The notes beneath the pieces are model-generated. The model was not told the origin of the DNA and did no database searches. It was given only the letters and a program-made list of their open reading frames with translations. Of a DNA stretch of 64,000 nucleotides, positions 20,673 to 37,383 are shown piece after piece. Source of the DNA: Lichtheimia corymbifera B2541. Taxonomy: Eukaryota > Mucoromycota > Mucoromycetes > Mucorales > Lichtheimiaceae. The position numbers were made by a program, and so were the translations under genes. Positions within the stretch are counted from its first letter, which is position 1. Each line of letters begins with the position of its first letter. The stretch lies in NCBI GenBank assembly GCA_000697475.1, contig JNEU01001087.1:31277-95276 (forward strand), read 5' to 3'.

Positions 20673-21220
20673 GTTGCAGGAAAGGGAAACGTTTTGAACC
20701 AAGAGAGACACGGTACGCGAGTTCGCCTCGGCTTGAATTTCCGACGCCTCATCTTTATGCTGTTAACCGCCCTTTGAAGCTGAACAATAAATATCAAAGG
20801 CATAAAATGCTTTAAACATATCATTGTTATCCATTCATTTATTCATCAAATCCCGTTTTCGAGTCGATATGATCTTTTTTACATGTATCATCTCCAAAAG
20901 AAAGAGAGCACCAATTCATCAACGTGGTAGTATGTAAGGTAAATAGGGGTATCACTTGGGTCAATATTTCACTCTCATCACATGAATAAGTATTTGATGA
21001 ACATGATATATTGGGTTGGGTAGCAAGGTAACAATGTACATCAAGTTGAATGATGAGTCTGCCGTTAACAACCAAAACAATAAAACGCTAGTTCTAGTGA
21101 ATGATCGTTATGCAGCTCCAGTTTTTGGTACTGGGCATAGGATAATGGAAAATCGGGATCTAGAGACACTCAAGTCAGATGATGTAGCAGAGGTTTTGAA
21201 AAAAATGAAAATTCTTACCT
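20673..21220. other. 3' flank of the Fanzor gene; possible guide-RNA region
   Basis: About 550 bp between the CSN7 start and the Fanzor stop. On the Fanzor strand a strong donor-like AGAG|GTAAGA lies four bases past the stop. A near-palindrome, CTAGTTCTAG at about 21089-21098, matches in core the arms of the dispersed repeat near 26.9-27.1 kb. In Fanzor and TnpB loci the guide (omega) RNA usually begins at or after the 3' end of the ORF, so this is where one would look; nothing in the sequence alone proves an RNA. Confidence 0.3.
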
Positions 21221-24200
21221 CTATCTTTGGAAAGCCGTCGGCCGTCCATGTCCTTTGATCAATGAATACGCGATGGAGTACATGTTCTTCGAGGCATTGA
21301 TATCCCGATTCCAAATGGTTTTGCAATTTTGATGTGTACAAAGCAAAACAGAATGCAATTTGTATAGATCTCCAATCTTAACGTTCTCCAGGGACTTGTG
21401 ATGACATTTGGAGCAGATCTAATAAAGAAAATAGCGTAACAACATGAGAAAGCGATCGCTTAATGATAAATAATGATTGATACGTACCTTTGACGTGTTG
21501 AACTCGTCAACCGAAATAGTCACACATCTACCGTCTAGTTCTGCTCTTCGAATACCGGCACGCAGCTTACTTGACAAGCCTGGTCTCGACCCCTTCCATC
21601 CTGTTGTCCTCCACTGCCCATCTCCAAGTGCTATCAAAGGTATTTTTGTTGATCCTTGATTGGGTAGCGGCCTCCACTTCTTCTTATTGTCACGGCTATA
21701 GGTATTACAATAACGATATAAGTAAAAGCAGTGTGATCACTCCAAAAAGACTTACCTTTTCTTAAGCACACGCTTGTTTTTCTTATCCTTCCTCTTTTGC
21801 TTCCTTCTGGCACGTCTGAGATGTGTATTGTTAGTAGCCGTTTCACACAATGTTAAAGGATACACCACTTTACCCTATTCTCTTGTGTCGGTTTTTCTTT
21901 TTACACCTCTTCTTGTTTTTTGGACTTGTTGGGTACTTTTTTCCGCCATCCAGCAATGTGTTCACCATAACATCCAATGCTCGTTGTCTCCCTTGGTAGT
22001 TCAGGAAACGCAATGTGTTGAATCTTGAATCATAGCGTCGTAACAATTGCGGAAGGACCACACATAGTGCTGTTGTGTATGTGAACAATGTATCATAAGA
22101 AGCTGTTTTGTACGTCGGCAATCTTGATTCAATATCCTCGATCGATACACCATCCATCTTCTCCTTTTTGTACTCAAGAATTCTCCTATTTGACTTGTCG
22201 ATCCCTGCATTGTCGTAGTACTCGTTTTTTGAGAAATGTCGCACTTGGTGAGTGCCTTGCCCCATCCCATCGGATGCTGTGAATACATCACGTTCCCCGG
22301 GGTCCACGCCCCAAAGCTTGAAATGATCATTCAAATCTTCCTCGTCAAAATCGTCGGCCTCCAATTGAGGTAGTGCATCTGTAGACGACGACTTGGTAGC
22401 GAAGATGACACTCGCACTGACTCCATCAGTCAAAAGCTGGTTGGTAAACACATGTCTCCTTTGTGCATCGCCATGACCCTTGATGGACTCAATCTTGAAT
22501 ATGGTACGAAATTGCAAAGCATGTAACTGATGTGGATTCAAATCTGGATGATCTCTTTCCTGAACAACGTATCGAGCAAGGCCTGCTTGTCGAAGAAATT
22601 GAACAAGGCCTTCCGAGCTGATTGTAATATGCTGCCTGATCATAGAGTAATGTGGAAGCAATGAGAAAGCCTTGATAGGTGTATTGTTCAAGATTGGTGG
22701 AGGGATAAAGCATTCATCTTTGTTCACAGTCGGCTGCATCTGATTGTTGACCTGCTGAAGATATTGACGTGATTTTTGCAAACGAGTTCTGACTTGGATT
22801 AGCTGCTCTCTGATCGCCTTTGATGCTGCATCAGGCAATGGCATGGTGACATTTTTGTTGGTATCATTGGCAGCGTTGACAAATTGACGTGCTAATAGCG
22901 ATCTTCGACGCTTGGTTAATTCCTTGAATTCAGCGTGAGAGTCGATTATCTCCTTGTAGACCCATGGTGCTGTCACTGTTGTGCGTGGCTCTAGTGCTTG
23001 ATAATGCATCCTCTCATTGTGATGTTCAATGGATTGTAGAGCAAGGTGGTAAAATCGTAAGAAAGGCCACGGGTCGCGTGTGATTAATGCTGGCGTGATG
23101 CCGCTGCTTGGCAAAGGTGTCGCATCGACAATGTCGGCCAATTTCATGTCCAGATTCGAGGTGCGTTCGACGTCCTTGGGCCACTTTGGATCATCATCGG
23201 TGATTCTAGCGAGCATATACCTTGCAATCTTGTTTCTTTGAGCACTCGTAAGATCCTATATCCAATAAATTGTAAGATAACCATACAAGTATATGATTGA
23301 CACAAGGGTCATTACCGGAACGCGTATCTGCAAAGTGAATCGGAACCACGAGAGCGCCCGCGATGGAAATGCCTCGACAATTTGATTGATAAAGATGGTC
23401 TTCGATTGTTGTGCAAGATAGGCCATCATTGGCGAAAAGCTGCTGTGTCTCAGTTGTTCACCGGGTACTTGAATGTTGCTAGCATAACGCTTCACTGCTT
23501 CGTACACTGATGTCAACTCTGCAACTGGTATATCGTTTCCGGAGGCTGCTCTTCCAAGGACAAGCTGTTGACATGCGTAAAAGAACGCTGACGTGAAAAG
23601 TCGCGGTGGTGGTTCTTGATTATCTTCTTCAAGCCATTTTGTGATGAAAATGGTGGCAAATAACAAGGATGTCACTGCAACATGACGAATCAAATCCGTA
23701 ACACGCTCAACTTGATTGACGAATCGATCCGCTTCAGCTCCTTCTAGCCGTAACAGCTTTTTCAATCCTGTCTTCATCGAGGTACGCCTAAACTTGTCAC
23801 CGAGCAAGTTCTTCAAGTAATCGTTTATGTTTTCTGCTCGTAAAGGGCAATTCGCAGAACTTGAACGTGAATGATGGTTCAAAGGATCGTAGATCCCTGC
23901 CTTGACGCAAGAGGGACAAGGAGGCGTATTGATAGGCTTGTCAAGCATTCTCCGTTTGTTACGAGCGTCCTTTTTGTCATCATCCGCTTTCCTCTTTAAT
24001 GCTCTCTCTATGTAGGCAAAAGCAATGAAATGAGTAAAAGCAACGAAACACATCCTTCTTATACTTACTGTTGAATGGACAAGCGGAACTTCTTGCATCA
24101 GCGTGACCTTGCTTCCCACATCTCTTGCAAACTATGTATATTACATTATCAGTTACATGTATACTATAATGCCCATATACTAGCTTATTCATACCTATTG

Positions 24201-25733
24201 CATTCTTTTTATTTTTTTCCTCCTCCTCTTTGCGTTGCAGTCGCTGTAGTTTGCTTTTCTTCTTGAAGAGAATAATGCCCTGTGTTGTCATCCCAGAGTA
24301 CCGTCTTTCTCGGACACCTAGTAGCTCGAAGGCTCTGTTCACGTCACATCCGGATTGTCGTAATGCCTCTTCTGCCGCTTTTTGGCTGTAGCGACGGGTG
24401 TTCATTAAGATCTCGAGAGCATTGTCATACTCTATTAGCCACCATGCATTAGTAAATGAGACGCCAAACGATAATGTTATAAATACCTTGTTCACTTTGA
24501 CTGAGATCCTCGATAGTCGTGCGATAGTTGACCTCCACAGCTGTAGCTATTACAATTTCCATTAGAAAATGAGCCGCGATTATTCAAAGCCAAAGTACTT
24601 ACGTAAGCTTTTTTCAAGTCGCGATTGATGCTGCTCTGCATGATGATGGTCTTCTTGCCATTGTTGGGCTTGTTGTTGTTGTGATTGATGAGAGTCTCTT
24701 TGCCGTTGTTGGGGATTGCTGCAGCGCACGTGCTTGATTACGAGGGTACCGTATCCCCTACATAGATAATATGGTAAGCATCTCGTTATGAGTATCTCGA
24801 CAGCACATACCGCTAAGTAATCTAACGCATTTTCAATGTCTATATCCGGCGAGACTTCAGCCACGACCTCGATTGCTTCTAATGAATAGCCAGCATCAAG
24901 AATGGCCCGTCGCACTTCGTCGTTTACTGTTTTTGTGAGTCGATACGCATACGATGATTAGAGCAGGATATAACAAACAATTATGCACGATTACCTTGAG
25001 GCATTGGTATAGGATCCCAAGGCAGTTGGTATGTTGCTGTTTTCATGAGTCGATACGCACACAATGATTAGAGCAGGATACAACATACAACTATGCATTA
25101 TTACCTTGAGGTGTTGGCCTTATGGGAGCCCAACGCATGTGGCTGGATGCTGTTTTCATGAGTCGATACGCACACGATGATTAGCGCAGGATATAACACA
25201 CAACTATCCGTGATTACCTTGAGGTGTTGGCCTTATAGGAGCAGCACTACCTGCTGGTGATCGAGTAACATGTGTATCAGCTTCAGCTACATGAATACAC
25301 AGCGTTGTTAATAGGAATCATATCCATCAAAACGGCTTCTACTTACCCTGCGGCTCTGAGGTAACCGAGGGAGTATCCGGCTGTGTCAAACCAATATCGA
25401 TTGCCTGCGGCTCTGAGGTAACTGGGGGAGTATCCGGCTGCGTCAAACCCAATAAGAATGTTGTTACTGAGAACACACGAATGAGCACATACCTCGTGTG
25501 AAAGAAGGAATTCTAAGGCATGATTCATATCTTTAAACTTATTCAAGGCGATACATGAGAGCTCCCGATCAAATCCCATTTGCACCAAGTAGTCAATTTC
25601 TTTTTTCCCTTTGTAAGGTTATACAGAATGAGATCCCAGCTCGAATGTCAATGTTGCATGATCTACGTTGCTGTTGCTCCGACAAAACACGCCTTATGTC
25701 CCTTGATGACCTTGACTTCTTCTTGGGTGGCAT
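21221..25733 (-). CDS. Fanzor: eukaryotic TnpB-like RNA-guided endonuclease with UBA/zinc-knuckle N-terminus
   Basis: About 1,190 aa from some 15 exons. N-terminus MPPKKKSRSSRDIRR is a likely nuclear signal. Then come a UBA-like helix set (EIDYLVQMGFDRELSCIAL), a PDTPP/TSEPQ repeat, three tandem micro-exons, a second UBA-like segment (VRRAILDAGYSLEAIEVV), a Gln/His-rich linker, a third UBA-like segment (ALEILMNTRRYSQKAAEEAL), and two zinc knuckles (CKRCGKQGHADARSSACP; CPSCVKAGIYDPLNHHSRS). The C-terminal half is the TnpB-like core: RuvC-I WGVDPGERDVFTAS; a basic RARRKQKRKDKKNKR helix; PLIALGDGQW, with Gly at the usual Glu site; VDEFNTSK with an alternative Glu 40 residues on; a zinc ribbon CSKC...CTHQNC; and RuvC-III WNRDINASKN, ending RPTAFQR. 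A Gly-plus-relocated-Glu RuvC is the published hallmark of Fanzors. All three acidic residues are present and the frame is open through every splice I tested, so it may be active. No transposase lies beside it. An upstream in-frame Met at 25787 is possible. Confidence 0.88.
24927..25240 (-). repeat. Tandem duplication of an intron plus micro-exon inside the Fanzor gene
   Basis: Two full units of about 110 and 113 bp and a partial third, starting at 24927, 25037 and 25150. Each contains an almost identical intron (GTAATC/GTAATA at one end, GAGTCGATACGCA and CATGAAAACAG near the other). Each is followed on the coding strand by a short exon of 42-45 nt, or the end of a longer exon, closing with P-x-PQ|G. 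All junctions are phase 1, so each copy adds 14-15 residues without changing frame (ASSHMRWAPIRPTPQ; ATYQLPWDPIPMPQ). Confidence 0.85.
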
Positions 25734-27255
25734 GAGGTGAATAAAGAGTATGGGACAAGAGAAAAGAGAGTAATTTTGACAATCCAAGTTTCAGTAGCAC
25801 ATTGCATGACGCACCATCAAAGCTGTCAGCCACTCCGGTGTCGTCACCTACCATCGTTCATAATACAGCTTAAGCATTATTGGGGGCCAAAAGATTGTCA
25901 TGCACACATAATCCCTTTATTGATTGTATATTAAACCTTGACGAATAATAAAGGCAATGATATTGTCTTGAGCTCGATAATGGAAACAGGGTGAGCAGTG
26001 GAATGTGTTGCTTGCTTTCGAACAGGAGCAGCAATGAAGCAAAGAAAGATGATGATGACTACTAATCGCAGCAATAGCGTAAGAGCAGAATGCTACAGAA
26101 CACGAAGAAATGGAATGAGACAGGGAAATGACACCGGCTGCATGAATACGAATGTTGTCAGCAGGATTCTCCCTCCGCAAACCAATGAACTGCAATCGAT
26201 GGAGATCGACCGCTTCTTATTGGACCAAAAATTCCTGAGGATCTCTGTTACGTTACTGGTATCTACTACATGGATCGGCGGGATATAACCTTCGTGTCAC
26301 CAAATTTTGCACCCAGGAATTTCACGCAATCCCACCACTAAGCGGAGTATACTACGTGAGTGAAAAAGACGTTTTGACACCTTTTTGGATAAGTTGTTGC
26401 AATATCTATGTTATATATGAAAGAAACTGTAGGCCATAGACTTGCTCTAACCAACCTTGGACTTGGGATAGCTGTCAGTCAGCACTCCCAACGTCCCAAG
26501 CGAGCTCGAATTTAATGCATATTACAATAGTAGAGAGCATTTGGGCCTGAATCGCTTCGTGATATCACCCATTTTAAGTTTTGAGAAAGGTTGGCAAGCG
26601 GGTTGGCACACATGTATGGGCCTTCTCAATCTGAAACCATTGTTACCATTCGTGGAGATACTCATGAACTTAAAGGGTTTTGATAAAAGGCTTATGAGCA
26701 ATGGTAGGTATAACTGGGTGCAAAAGGATAGCCAACACTGCAAAAGAATAAGTCCGCTAAATGTGCGCCTGAACCAACAAGCTGCCTGCCGACATTGTGT
26801 TCAAACACATTTTAGTAACGCCCATGCTTTTGATACCTCCATGCATAAAATATATAGAAGTTGAAGTATCCTTCCCATTAATTCGCTCGTTCTTACGATG
26901 ACTCTTGGTATTGGAAATATGCTTGCAGAAAAACTCTAGAACTAGTAATTGCCAAAGCTAGCAATTGCCGGATCACCAAAGATAGCTTCTTGCAGCTAAC
27001 ACAGGTGTTATAGGATCAACTTCTCTCAGAATATCGAATGTATACATGCAAAGGTGCTTTATATGAAAATCTCAGGGTTCAACCATCACTGCTCGCATAA
27101 CATAAATAATGTGAAGTTACCACTAGTTCTAGTGGCGAAACTTTAAAGATAGCCGTTAAAAGTCATCGATCCAACGCTGACTGAGATGGCTCCTATCACC
27201 ACTGCAATTCCAATCCAGGTGTCCATCCATACTCCGTATCCCAGACCACAACTAA
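25734..27255. other. 1.5 kb divergent region between Fanzor and CCDC174
   Basis: Upstream of both the Fanzor gene and CCDC174. Holds copy A of a dispersed repeat at its right side (listed separately). A plus-strand frame at 26541-26864 shows no motif. No transposase or other mobile-element gene was found here. Confidence 0.4.
26845..27165 (+). repeat. Dispersed repeat, copy A
   Basis: About 320 bp that aligns, with many substitutions and small gaps, to 33065-33400. Shared blocks include ATAAAATATA-AGAAGTTGAAG at the left and AATAATGTGAAGTT near the right. Two inward-facing arms, CTAGAACTAGTA (26936) and CACTAGTTCTAGTG (27121), sit about 190 bp apart and are near-palindromic. It looks like an old non-autonomous element, or a conserved regulatory block; no coding capacity. 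Confidence 0.6.
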
Positions 27256-32221: not shown

Positions 32222-32690
32222 TTAATGTGTGTTGTGAGGGTTGCCGCCAAATTCTGTCAAGTGTTTGTTGAGGGGTGTATTTCCAATGATGGTGATTGCT
32301 TCCTTGGAAAGGAAAAGACCGGTAATTGCAGTTATGATATCCTGTTGTTTTCCGGGCTTCATTGCGTTGTTTATCTCCTGTACAACACTCAATAGCAATT
32401 TTACTTCCTTCCCATGTGAAAAAAACTTGCAACGCCAGTTGTCGAAACAATTTTGAGGAGAGTGATGATGAGCATGGTAGGAGACTTACACCAAAATCCA
32501 TTGCTGTCCAAATTGTTGCTGGCCGGCATTGAATGTCGTTCGTAAAAACCGACGACGCTCGACAAGGCGTGCACTTATGTCACCTATAAAGGAGCCCCAA
32601 ATCTCCCACCAGACTGAGGTTGCCTTTTGCCTATAAATGATAGGTATACCTACCACAAAGGATCCATCAAGGAACACAGTCAAGTGCCAT
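32222..32690 (-). pseudogene. Unidentified coding-like remnant
   Basis: Two minus-strand blocks look like protein sequence: SVWWEIWGSFIGDISARLVE followed by RRRFLRTTFNAGQQQFGQQW, and, after a possible intron, EVKLLLSVVQEINNAMKPGK then QDIITAITGLFLSKEAITII to the stop. The donor joining them would be a weak GTGTAA, and the upstream exon contains a TAA unless an unusual splice is used. No family is recognised. It may be a small gene that I cannot splice properly, or a remnant like its RasGAP neighbour. Confidence 0.35.
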
Positions 32691-33064
32691 TAGGCACCAA
32701 TGATCAATGAAGTGAGCTACATAGATGAATGCTTGAGTACCCTCATTTTGGGGATCGCATAAAGACCATCCTTGAGACTTACTAAGGGCCATTGATTGAT
32801 GATGGTATGCATACAAGTAGAAAGAAAAGGTGTGTAATAGTGTTGGTGACAACAGCCCTGTTTATATGTGAGTAGGTGTGGGAATTTTTGTCATGATGGA
32901 CCGAACTGATAAAGTGGTCAAGCACCTTGGAAAATCAACAGTTGATGCACAATCCACCTGCGGCTTGAAAGGTGATTTTTTTGTAGGTGACATATAAGTA
33001 TGTCCCTCTGCATTGAATGTGTTTCCAAGCACTTTGAAGATGCCTACACATTTCGTATCAATAT

Positions 33065-33400
33065 CTAATAAAATATACAGAAGTTGAAGCATCTTTACAA
33101 CCTATCCGCATTTTGTTATGTTGACTCTTTGTGTTGGAAAAATGCTTTTGAAAAAGTACTAGATCTAGTAGTTCCCAAAATTGGTAATTACCCTGTCACC
33201 AACAATGGCTTCATACAACTTCCACACGCGATATATAGCAAATCTCTCTCAAGATACCATAAGCGCACAAGCAAAAGTATTTTATTTCAAGATCTCAGTC
33301 TCCAAACATCACTTGTCGTCTCTCAAAAATAATGTGAAGTTGCTACTAGATCTAGTCACAGGAGTTACAGAGATACCCAAATAATCAAGTCATGTATCGA
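33065..33400 (+). repeat. Dispersed repeat, copy B
   Basis: Second copy of the element at 26845-27165, same orientation. Here both internal arms are perfect 12-bp palindromes, ACTAGATCTAGT (about 33158 and 33345), whereas copy A has AGAACT/AGTTCT at the centre. The two arms change together within each copy. No coding capacity. Confidence 0.6.
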
Positions 33401-35076: not shown

Positions 35077-35526
35077 GAGTACCAATAAAACAAGCGTCTA
35101 TACCTTGCCTTTAGCATGACTCTATCGTTGTAGTAATCGACCGTCGTACATGCATACAACATAGTAATAAGAGCTTCCCGCTTTCAGCTTTATTATGAAT
35201 ATATTATCAGGCATCTATTTTCCTATCGCACTAGATGTTCGTACCCTCTTTTAAACCTATCATTTGTGTATAATGAAGCTGACAAAGGGTGGGTGATTCG
35301 GAGCAGGAGAACTCTCACGTGATGTGACTTGACCCAGGTAGCTTGCAAAACAACGCAGCCAGAGTTGCGGGTTGTTGGTCCTTTTTCCTCAGAGACAAGA
35401 GGCCCCTTCCCCCCAAAGTAGACGATTCGAACGCACAGCAGTCCCCATCTGATACCAAGGCTTGCGTTTCAGTCGATAGTCTTTCATCAGAGTACACCAT
35501 CTTGTAGCAGCATCGACCCCAAAGTC
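35077..35526. other. Intergenic, 450 bp
   Basis: 3' flank of the coiled-coil gene and 5' flank of the polyQ protein gene. No gene supported. Confidence 0.35.
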
Positions 35527-37383
35527 ATGTCTCACGGCGGACGTGCATTTCAAGCCCATGGCTACTCGGCCATTTCACCTGACACGATGCGGGCTCATCG
35601 ACAGACACTACTAAGTCAACAGCAGCATCAGCAACAGCAACAGCAACAACAGCAGCAACAAGCATTTGCCCAACATCAAGCAGCAGCAGCAGCCATGGCA
35701 GTGACGAGTGCTGCTACACCGACCACGACAACGTATAGTCACCATCCGTCGAATGGCAGTAATCATCCTGCAGCAGCAGCGGCAGTGGTGGCTGCAGGCG
35801 TGGCAGGAGGTGGACCTGGACCCGGCAATAGCAGTGGAGCGGATGCACGACGTAGTATGATGGCTGTGGCAGCTGGACCGGATTCGGGTTATTGTGAGAG
35901 TTGCCATACGGTGCGTGCACTTTCTTTCTTTTACGACGAGCGAGCTGCAAAGTACAACAACATTTGTTGTTTTTGTCGTCCATCTCCATTACAAAAACGC
36001 AAACAACGCTATGAAGTGTTTGAAGAGCATGAACGAGCCCTTAAACAAGCACGGTATTCGCAGCAACCCCATCAACATACACACGCGCATCATCCGTCTC
36101 AACACGCTCAACAACAACAACCACCTCCACAAGCACATCAGACGCCTTCACCAGCCCATCATCATCACCATCATCACTCTCATCACCAAACTCAACAGGC
36201 TACACAACATTTGATTCCACCTCCACCACCTTCACAACAACAACAACAACAAGCAGCAGCAGCAGCAGCTCAATCAGCAGCAGCCGCAGCTGCAACAACG
36301 CGTGGTCCTTTTATGCAACAGGCAACGATGCACGATCCACCCATCCAAGTCAAAGCATCACCACCTAATAAGCCTCAAATGTTCTCGGCTTCACCTTCGC
36401 CACTGCGTGGTCAATCTCAGTTACAACCTCATGTACAAGCTATGCAACCATCACCCATGATGCCATTACCTCTACCTGTTCCTCAGCAACTACAAATGCA
36501 TATCCAGCAAAGCTTCTCACATCAACATGATCCACAACAACAACAACAACAACAACAACAGCCACCTCCTTCACACCATCATCAGCAACATCCTCCCCCT
36601 CCTCCTACACAACATCATCCTCAACAAAGACCGGTGCGTTCTACTCCTGATATTGGTTCTACTATGGCTGCTGCTGCAGCTGTCGTGGCAGCATCTGCAG
36701 GTCAACCACAACCTACCATGCCAATCAAAGCTGGAACTGGATCTACTTCATCACCTCGGATTGATCGTACTACGACAGGTAGTGGAGCAGGAACATCATC
36801 ATCAGGTGGAGCAGGATCAAGTGGAGGAGGCACTCGTCCTGAAGTATTGTCATTGGAGGCTTTTGTACATGCTCTCGAACAAGAAAGCGAATTTGATCGT
36901 AAAGTATATGATGTGGATATTACACCCTTGATTCTTCGATTGGGAGAAGGAGCCGGATTTTCACAACTTGGTCGTGGTGTATGTGAACACGTTTTGAATG
37001 GAACAAAATTCAATTTTAGGTAAGTTTTCAAATTGCTTGAAGATAAGAGGGGAAAAAAGACTGATGGGAGAATGGTTTTTCTTTATTCTAGTTTAAAAGA
37101 TCAACGTCGATCGATCAAGACACCGGATACTTTATCAACCCTTCGTTACTATTGTTCACAACGTGCTGATACTGCCAAACCAAGAAAGGCCAATGATCAT
37201 CCCAAGGCTACCAATCGTTATGACTGTGCTGGTGCATTAACAATCATCATTGATTTGATCAAAAAGACGGCTCACGTGACCTTAATACACAAGCACCCAC
37301 ATCCACCCTTCATTCCACACCACAACCACCACCATCATCATTACGGTCAGTCACACCATCAGAATCAGCAACAGAGGCTTCAA

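Follow-up and report, generated by a model that had tools for sequence, protein, structure and literature searches.

A Fanzor gene with a UBA-like N-terminal extension in a probable low-copy DNA element of Lichtheimia corymbifera

Fanzor proteins are CRISPR-like RNA-guided DNA-cutting enzymes. Here, we describe a Fanzor gene on the minus strand of a 64,000-nucleotide stretch of the Lichtheimia corymbifera B2541 genome (contig JNEU01001087.1; the whole stretch is referred to as the window, and all coordinates are window positions). We consider it likely, with a probability of roughly 0.8, that this is a Fanzor1-family gene within a low-copy DNA element of approximately 6.1 kb that has no visible transposase gene and whose insertion site lies between CSN7 and CCDC174, both host genes. 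This reading is carried by the residues of the encoded protein, its homology, the fold of a modeled relative, the recurrence of the element ends, the presence of dispersed copies and past purifying selection.

Gene model and catalytic residues

In a hand-made model, the gene starts with an ATG at 25733, its stop codon ends at 21221, and its 16 exons are separated by 15 GT..AG introns of 53 to 69 nucleotides. Its main features, compared where relevant with copies on other contigs of the assembly (C199, C328), are as follows.

21221-25733, minus strand: Fanzor gene (16-exon hand model)
25493-25608, minus strand: exon 2, UBA1 (Pfam UBA match of 18.8 to 19.2 bits here, 24.1 bits in C199 and 37.4 bits in C328)
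24811-24926, minus strand: exon 7, tentative UBA-like stretch 2 (41% identity to its C328 counterpart)
24603-24757, minus strand: exon 8, Q/T-rich, containing a frame shift under canonical splicing (translation and comparison with C328)
24195-24431, minus strand: exon 10, tentative UBA-like stretch 3 and a basic helix in a single open exon (UBA_HYPK, E = 6.3e-4, below cutoff)
24069-24131, minus strand: exon 11, zinc knuckle CX2C..H..C (zf-CCHC_6, E = 0.024, below cutoff; the motif is also present in Mucorales relatives)
23316-24007, minus strand: exon 12, with another Cys/His cluster starting at 23918 and the beginning of the core (translation)
21874-23255, minus strand: exon 13, core with RuvC-I and VDPG (homologue matches and translation)
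21488-21695, minus strand: exon 15, GDG and VDEF (translation)
21221-21418, minus strand: exon 16, four-Cys zinc ribbon, RDIN and stop (Pfam TNB and translation)

The translation places the catalytic residues where an earlier note on this sequence had put them. The first RuvC Asp is part of a DPG motif (VDPG, 22307-22296, minus strand, as are all positions in this paragraph). In exon 15, the canonical Glu position holds a Gly (GDGQ, 21625-21614, of which GDG covers 21625-21617), and a shifted Glu is found in VDEF (21511-21500; Glu codon, 21505-21503), separated by six residues from the first Cys of the zinc ribbon (VDEFNTSKIC). Exon 16 contributes the Cys pairs of that ribbon (CSKC, 21415-21404; CTHQNC, 21340-21323), followed by the RD motif (RDIN, 21307-21296; Asp codon, 21304-21302). 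Because a DPG motif combined with a Glu six residues ahead of the zinc finger is described as the fingerprint of Fanzor proteins (PMC10711439), the shifted Glu follows the rule of the family, in agreement with the note, which had called it a Fanzor trait.

Besides these features, the linker exons 4 to 6 and their introns (24924-25242) look as though an exon-intron unit of approximately 110 bp had been duplicated in tandem (84.7% identity over 209 columns).

Homologues and predicted structure

Judged by its sequence, the gene is a genuine Fanzor gene, as the note had proposed, and probably of the Fanzor1 type. In a phmmer search, the core matched SpuFz1 (E = 2.4e-6) and also GtFz1; PpFz1 was not matched in that search. 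Exon 13 alone, used as a query, matched eight proteins at E ≤ 1e-3, and another search returned 39 homologous proteins, both searches being limited to proteins of 0.55 to 1.75 times the query length. The named homologues come from Mucor, Helicostylum, Thamnidium, Pilaira, Hesseltinella and Rhizopus. The Pfam TNB zinc domain was found in the window gene just below its curated cutoff (E = 3.4e-5; 24.3 bits versus 26.3 bits). Eighteen relatives, many of them fragments, were scanned for Pfam domains (in sets of 8 and 10): TNB scored above the cutoff in eight (P0003, P0006, P0009, P0010, P0011, P0012, P0013 and P0035) and below it in P0007, P0008, P0016 and P0043, while the remaining six, among which P0002 lacks the TNB region, gave no TNB match. 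Finally, the modeled Mucor relative P0009 resembled solved Fanzor1 structures most closely: Fanzor1 took the top seven places among its Foldseek matches and the top five VIA rows, although the model itself is weak (predicted local distance difference test score [pLDDT], 59.8; predicted template modeling score [pTM], 0.32).

Element ends, genomic setting and other copies

On both sides, the gene is flanked by sequence modules shared with other loci, which delimit the proposed element.

21069-27151, minus strand: Fanzor-bearing element, approximately 6,083 bp, ends uncertain by approximately 20 bp (recurring 5' and 3' modules)
27152-27159, minus strand: candidate target-site duplication TTAACGGC, left copy (8-mer shared with 21068-21061)
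21061-21068, minus strand: candidate target-site duplication TTAACGGC, right copy (8-mer shared with 27159-27152)
26832-27137, minus strand: 5' terminal module, in which the palindrome ACTAGNNCTAG stands twice, at 27122-27133 and 26936-26946 (recurrence elsewhere)
21088-21136, minus strand: 3' terminal module, a CCAGT..ACTGG hairpin and then a palindrome at 21098-21088; candidate 3' part of an omega RNA (common to C138 and C370; predicted fold)
26309-26530, strand not assigned: repeat of approximately 220 bp within the 5' part of the element, with relatives at C306 and C316 (sequence comparison)

Three further copies of the 5' module lie at C199, C8 and window positions 33363-33068, and homology between the window and C199, an internally deleted copy, starts near the palindrome at 27133. 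Its palindrome, ACTAGNNCTAG, has eight strand hits (five sites) in the window versus 0.22 expected. The 3' module recurs at two other places, C138 and C370, and its hairpin is predicted in all three copies. As for the candidate duplication, the minus strand of the window carries TTAACGGC nowhere but at 27159-27152 and 21068-21061, the plus strand carries it at two unrelated places, and an 8-mer was shared by chance in 353 of 20,000 random draws of two 40-nucleotide stretches.

We infer that the protein would bind an omega RNA transcribed from the element's 3' end, with the guide portion of that RNA read from the flanking DNA, and that the RuvC site (the VDPG Asp, the shifted VDEF Glu and the RDIN Asp) would cut matching DNA; such cleavage might favor retention or copying of the element.

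Fanzor pieces were detected at E ≤ 0.001 on seven other contigs (C396, C138, C328, C106, C337, C344 and C199). Among the copies found in the assembly, that in the window alone is a full-length member of its subfamily, the other recognized members (C199, C138 and C344) being fragments or internally deleted; C199 does keep exons 1 and 2 together, at the same locus as Fanzor 3' pieces. A second subfamily is represented by 3' ends on C396, C106 and C337, which show 99.3 to 99.7% pairwise identity and have different flanks, and by 5' ends on C328 and C157 (95.8% identity). Because these near-identical ends occur at different sites with different flanks, the second subfamily must have moved recently, although a search of its terminal 8-mers gave no convincing target duplication. 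Together with the recurring ends, these dispersed copies offer a fungal system in which to ask whether Fanzor aids the persistence of an element. The second-subfamily copies L045 (C328), L046 (C396), L048 (C106), L049 (C337) and L064 (C157) lie at contig ends, and the overlap of C328 and C396 is almost identical apart from single-base indels and a stretch of approximately 130 bp.

No other element gene had been noticed beside the Fanzor gene, and our analysis agrees: CSN7 and CCDC174 are the closest neighbors that gave a family match, and no open reading frame (ORF) of at least 140 amino acids is present between 24547 and 27796, where smaller ORFs, Fanzor exons excepted, were not searched against families. 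The further suggestion of a stand-alone or domesticated copy finds no support, because both ends of the element that holds the gene recur elsewhere and because the second subfamily has near-identical copies dispersed over different sites. An immobile host gene, retained for a cellular function, would have been expected to lack mobile-element ends around it, whereas here ends common to other loci lie on both sides. Its status as the sole full-length copy of its subfamily in the assembly, the purifying selection in its core (see below) and its position between two housekeeping-type genes would suit such a domesticated gene; the recurrence of the ends, the candidate target duplication and the frame shift in exon 8 do not, and we regard domestication as improbable.

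Elsewhere in the window, the second copy of the 5' module (33068-33363) has both palindromes and no adjoining Fanzor gene that we could see, and, as in C199, lies beside a repeat of approximately 440 bp. This repeat (32566-33005) has many copies: with 40 of 180 candidates scored, the query spanning it gave at least 41 matches, and at least 38 of these, apart from the rows for the window and C199, fall mainly on the repeat. An ORF of 533 amino acids at 35422-37023 is very rich in Q, H, P and A and has a Cys pattern near residue 155; it had no Pfam match at E ≤ 0.001.

Reading frame and selection

The earlier note had also described the gene as intact, with an open frame over about 15 exons. The core part of this claim stands, in that exons 8 to 16 are open (1,017 amino acids plus stop) and contain the catalytic residues, but they are read in a different frame than exons 1 to 7 (open for 182 amino acids). 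With the canonical 53-nucleotide intron 7, exons 7 and 8 are joined out of frame, leading to a TGA in exon 8. An alternative intron 7 of 78 nucleotides, with a weaker AAG acceptor, would preserve the frame, as judged by eye; against this acceptor, the paralogue on C328 has the corresponding 25 nucleotides as exon. The C328 exon matching exon 8 begins with AIRGPPDQ (versus GIRYPRNQ in the window) after the same type of acceptor, and the shift therefore falls inside the Q/T-rich exon 8. Because the near-identical, overlapping contig ends of C328 and C396, each with a core frame shift of its own, differ by single-base indels, the assembly of this genome may contain errors of this kind; decay is possible as well. 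In summary, the nuclease core of the window copy is open and the integrity of the N-terminal part is unproven, making the word intact doubtful for this gene, given the exon 8 shift under canonical splicing.

Nonsynonymous (dN) and synonymous (dS) substitution rates bear on the same matter. Between the window and the C328/C396 pieces of the second subfamily (704 codons), 41%, 27% and 65% of the sites differ at codon positions 1, 2 and 3, respectively; dN is 0.45 and dS is saturated. The fastest block in this comparison is UBA1 (dN, 0.71; 26% identity), with dN values of 0.49 for UBA2 and 0.34 for UBA3. Within the subfamily of the window copy, dN and dS are 0.114 and 0.764 versus C138 (85 codons; dN/dS, approximately 0.15), 0.317 and 1.134 versus exon 2 of C199 (36 codons) and 0.307 and 0.879 versus exon 10 of C344 (43 codons); for exon 16 versus C138, dS is saturated. 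Judging from these values, the nuclease core has been under purifying selection, and the pattern as a whole is consistent with purifying selection over a long time and with some decay of the fragments. Compared with C199, intron 1 (25609-25666) differs at 2 of 58 positions, the 5' noncoding stretch at 71 of 427 and exon 2 at 24 to 41% of sites per codon position.

Could the window copy then be a dead or dying relic that, with exon 8 shifted, yields no full-length protein? The TGA that follows from canonical splicing, at a splice site supported by the C328 paralogue, points in this direction, as does the fragmentary or internally deleted state of the other members recognized in the subfamily (C199, C138 and C344). 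On the other hand, the core is open from exon 9 to the stop with all catalytic residues, dN/dS versus C138 is low, the indels between C328 and C396 leave room for an assembly error, and the AAG acceptor would keep the frame. On balance, we take decay to be a real possibility, if somewhat short of an even chance. For the proposed Fanzor1-family gene and element as a whole, the same frame problem counts as a point against, as do the weakness of the P0009 model and the presence in C138 of a similar TTAAAGGC where the right-hand duplication is proposed.

The N-terminal extension

Upstream of the core, the predicted protein carries an extension, not mentioned in the earlier note, with one stretch that resembles a UBA domain and, tentatively, two further UBA-like stretches, followed by the zinc knuckle. 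The order UBA1, UBA2-like, UBA3-like, knuckle and core is the same in C328, and the second subfamily, approximately 50% identical to the first, retains the extension. For UBA1, the Pfam UBA (PF00627) scores of C328 and C199 lie above the curated cutoff of 22.4 bits. The stretches in exons 7 and 10 are 41% and 56% identical, respectively, to their C328 counterparts, and neither reaches the UBA cutoff in the window or in C328. The UBA_HYPK match of exon 10 is accompanied by a marginal UBA-like match in C328 (E = 0.062), ranked after an ATPase lid. When the exon 10 profile was compared with the PDB, none of the five rows was significant, the best match being archaeal MTH177 (E = 0.036), a NAC with a UBA domain, and the third being mitochondrial EF-Ts (E = 0.39). 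Not every UBA domain is known to bind ubiquitin; those of NAC and EF-Ts, for example, are not known to do so.

Several results speak against the extension being a UBA array: UBA1 of the window itself scores under the cutoff; the exon 7 stretch had no UBA family match in either the window or the C328 copy and nothing UBA-like in the PDB; and the exon 10 model, a weak one with three helices and a long helix (pLDDT, approximately 55 to 75 in the first part), gave no significant Foldseek match. None of the 18 relatives scanned, many of them fragments, had a UBA match. Four of these (P0002, P0009, P0013 and P0035) start 29 to 41 residues before the knuckle, P0010 starts approximately 117 residues before it with a different stretch, and P0012 starts after it; the starts annotated for these proteins may be incomplete. 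Among the titles listed from the open-licence PMC literature linking Fanzor with UBA or ubiquitin, none concerned a UBA-Fanzor fusion, and no paper there linked Fanzor with Mucoromycota.

The late starts of those four relatives, without a UBA match, and the change of frame between exons 7 and 9 might also indicate that the UBA-like exons form a separate upstream gene that is not spliced to Fanzor. However, UBA-like stretch 3 shares one open exon (24431-24195) with the basic helix preceding the knuckle, C328 shows the same order of UBA1, UBA2, UBA3, knuckle and core, and C199 has exons 1 and 2 alongside Fanzor 3' pieces, making a separate gene unlikely.

The likely role of the UBA-like extension is to tether the nuclease, or to regulate it, via ubiquitinated proteins. 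More speculatively, a fungal Fanzor lineage might have gained an N-terminal UBA array before the knuckle. The resulting RNA-guided nuclease would recognize ubiquitin marks (on histones, PCNA or repair factors), either to gain access to chromatin or to pass its breaks on to repair, and selection would have kept the fusion since the two subfamilies split; we offer this as a tentative idea, with the odds slightly against it.

Comparison with known Fanzor systems

The closest comparisons are with the Mucor flavus proteins P0009 (MFLAVUS_006482; 948 amino acids) and P0002 (MFLAVUS_002890), which share VDPG and the order of knuckle, second Cys/His cluster and core with the window gene and are 30 to 31% identical to its exon 13. 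P0009 also has GDA, a shifted Glu in TEY, a four-Cys ribbon and RDIN; the P0002 sequence is without zinc ribbon and RD motif, perhaps through a gene-model fault. Both differ from the window gene in starting 39 to 41 residues ahead of the knuckle, without a UBA match. SpuFz1, the Fanzor1 protein of Spizellomyces punctatus, shares the RuvC and zinc-ribbon plan, with WNRD and the final residues aligning, but is, according to PMC3627910 and PMC10432273, a protein of 633 amino acids encoded by one ORF in a 2.1-kb element, whereas the window gene has 16 exons, approximately 1,200 residues and an N-terminal extension.

At the level of the element, the MCi, ROr and PBl Fanzor1 elements of Mucor, Rhizopus and Phycomyces, as described in PMC3627910, are alike in being multi-kilobase Mucorales elements, several of them without a recognized transposase or inverted repeats. 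They differ in the size of the duplication, which is given there as 11 to 12 bp for MCi-2, 9 bp for the MCi-4 type and 6 bp for MCi-5, whereas the candidate in the window measures 8 bp.

Lastly, in PpFz1, the Fanzor1 protein of Parasitella parasitica, the extra part is an insertion within RuvC that binds cyclophilin (PMC11423790), whereas that of the window gene is an N-terminal UBA-like array. If our reading is true, this conserved array would provide a second, easily tested case of host-factor use by a Fanzor protein, after the cyclophilin-binding insertion of PpFz1.

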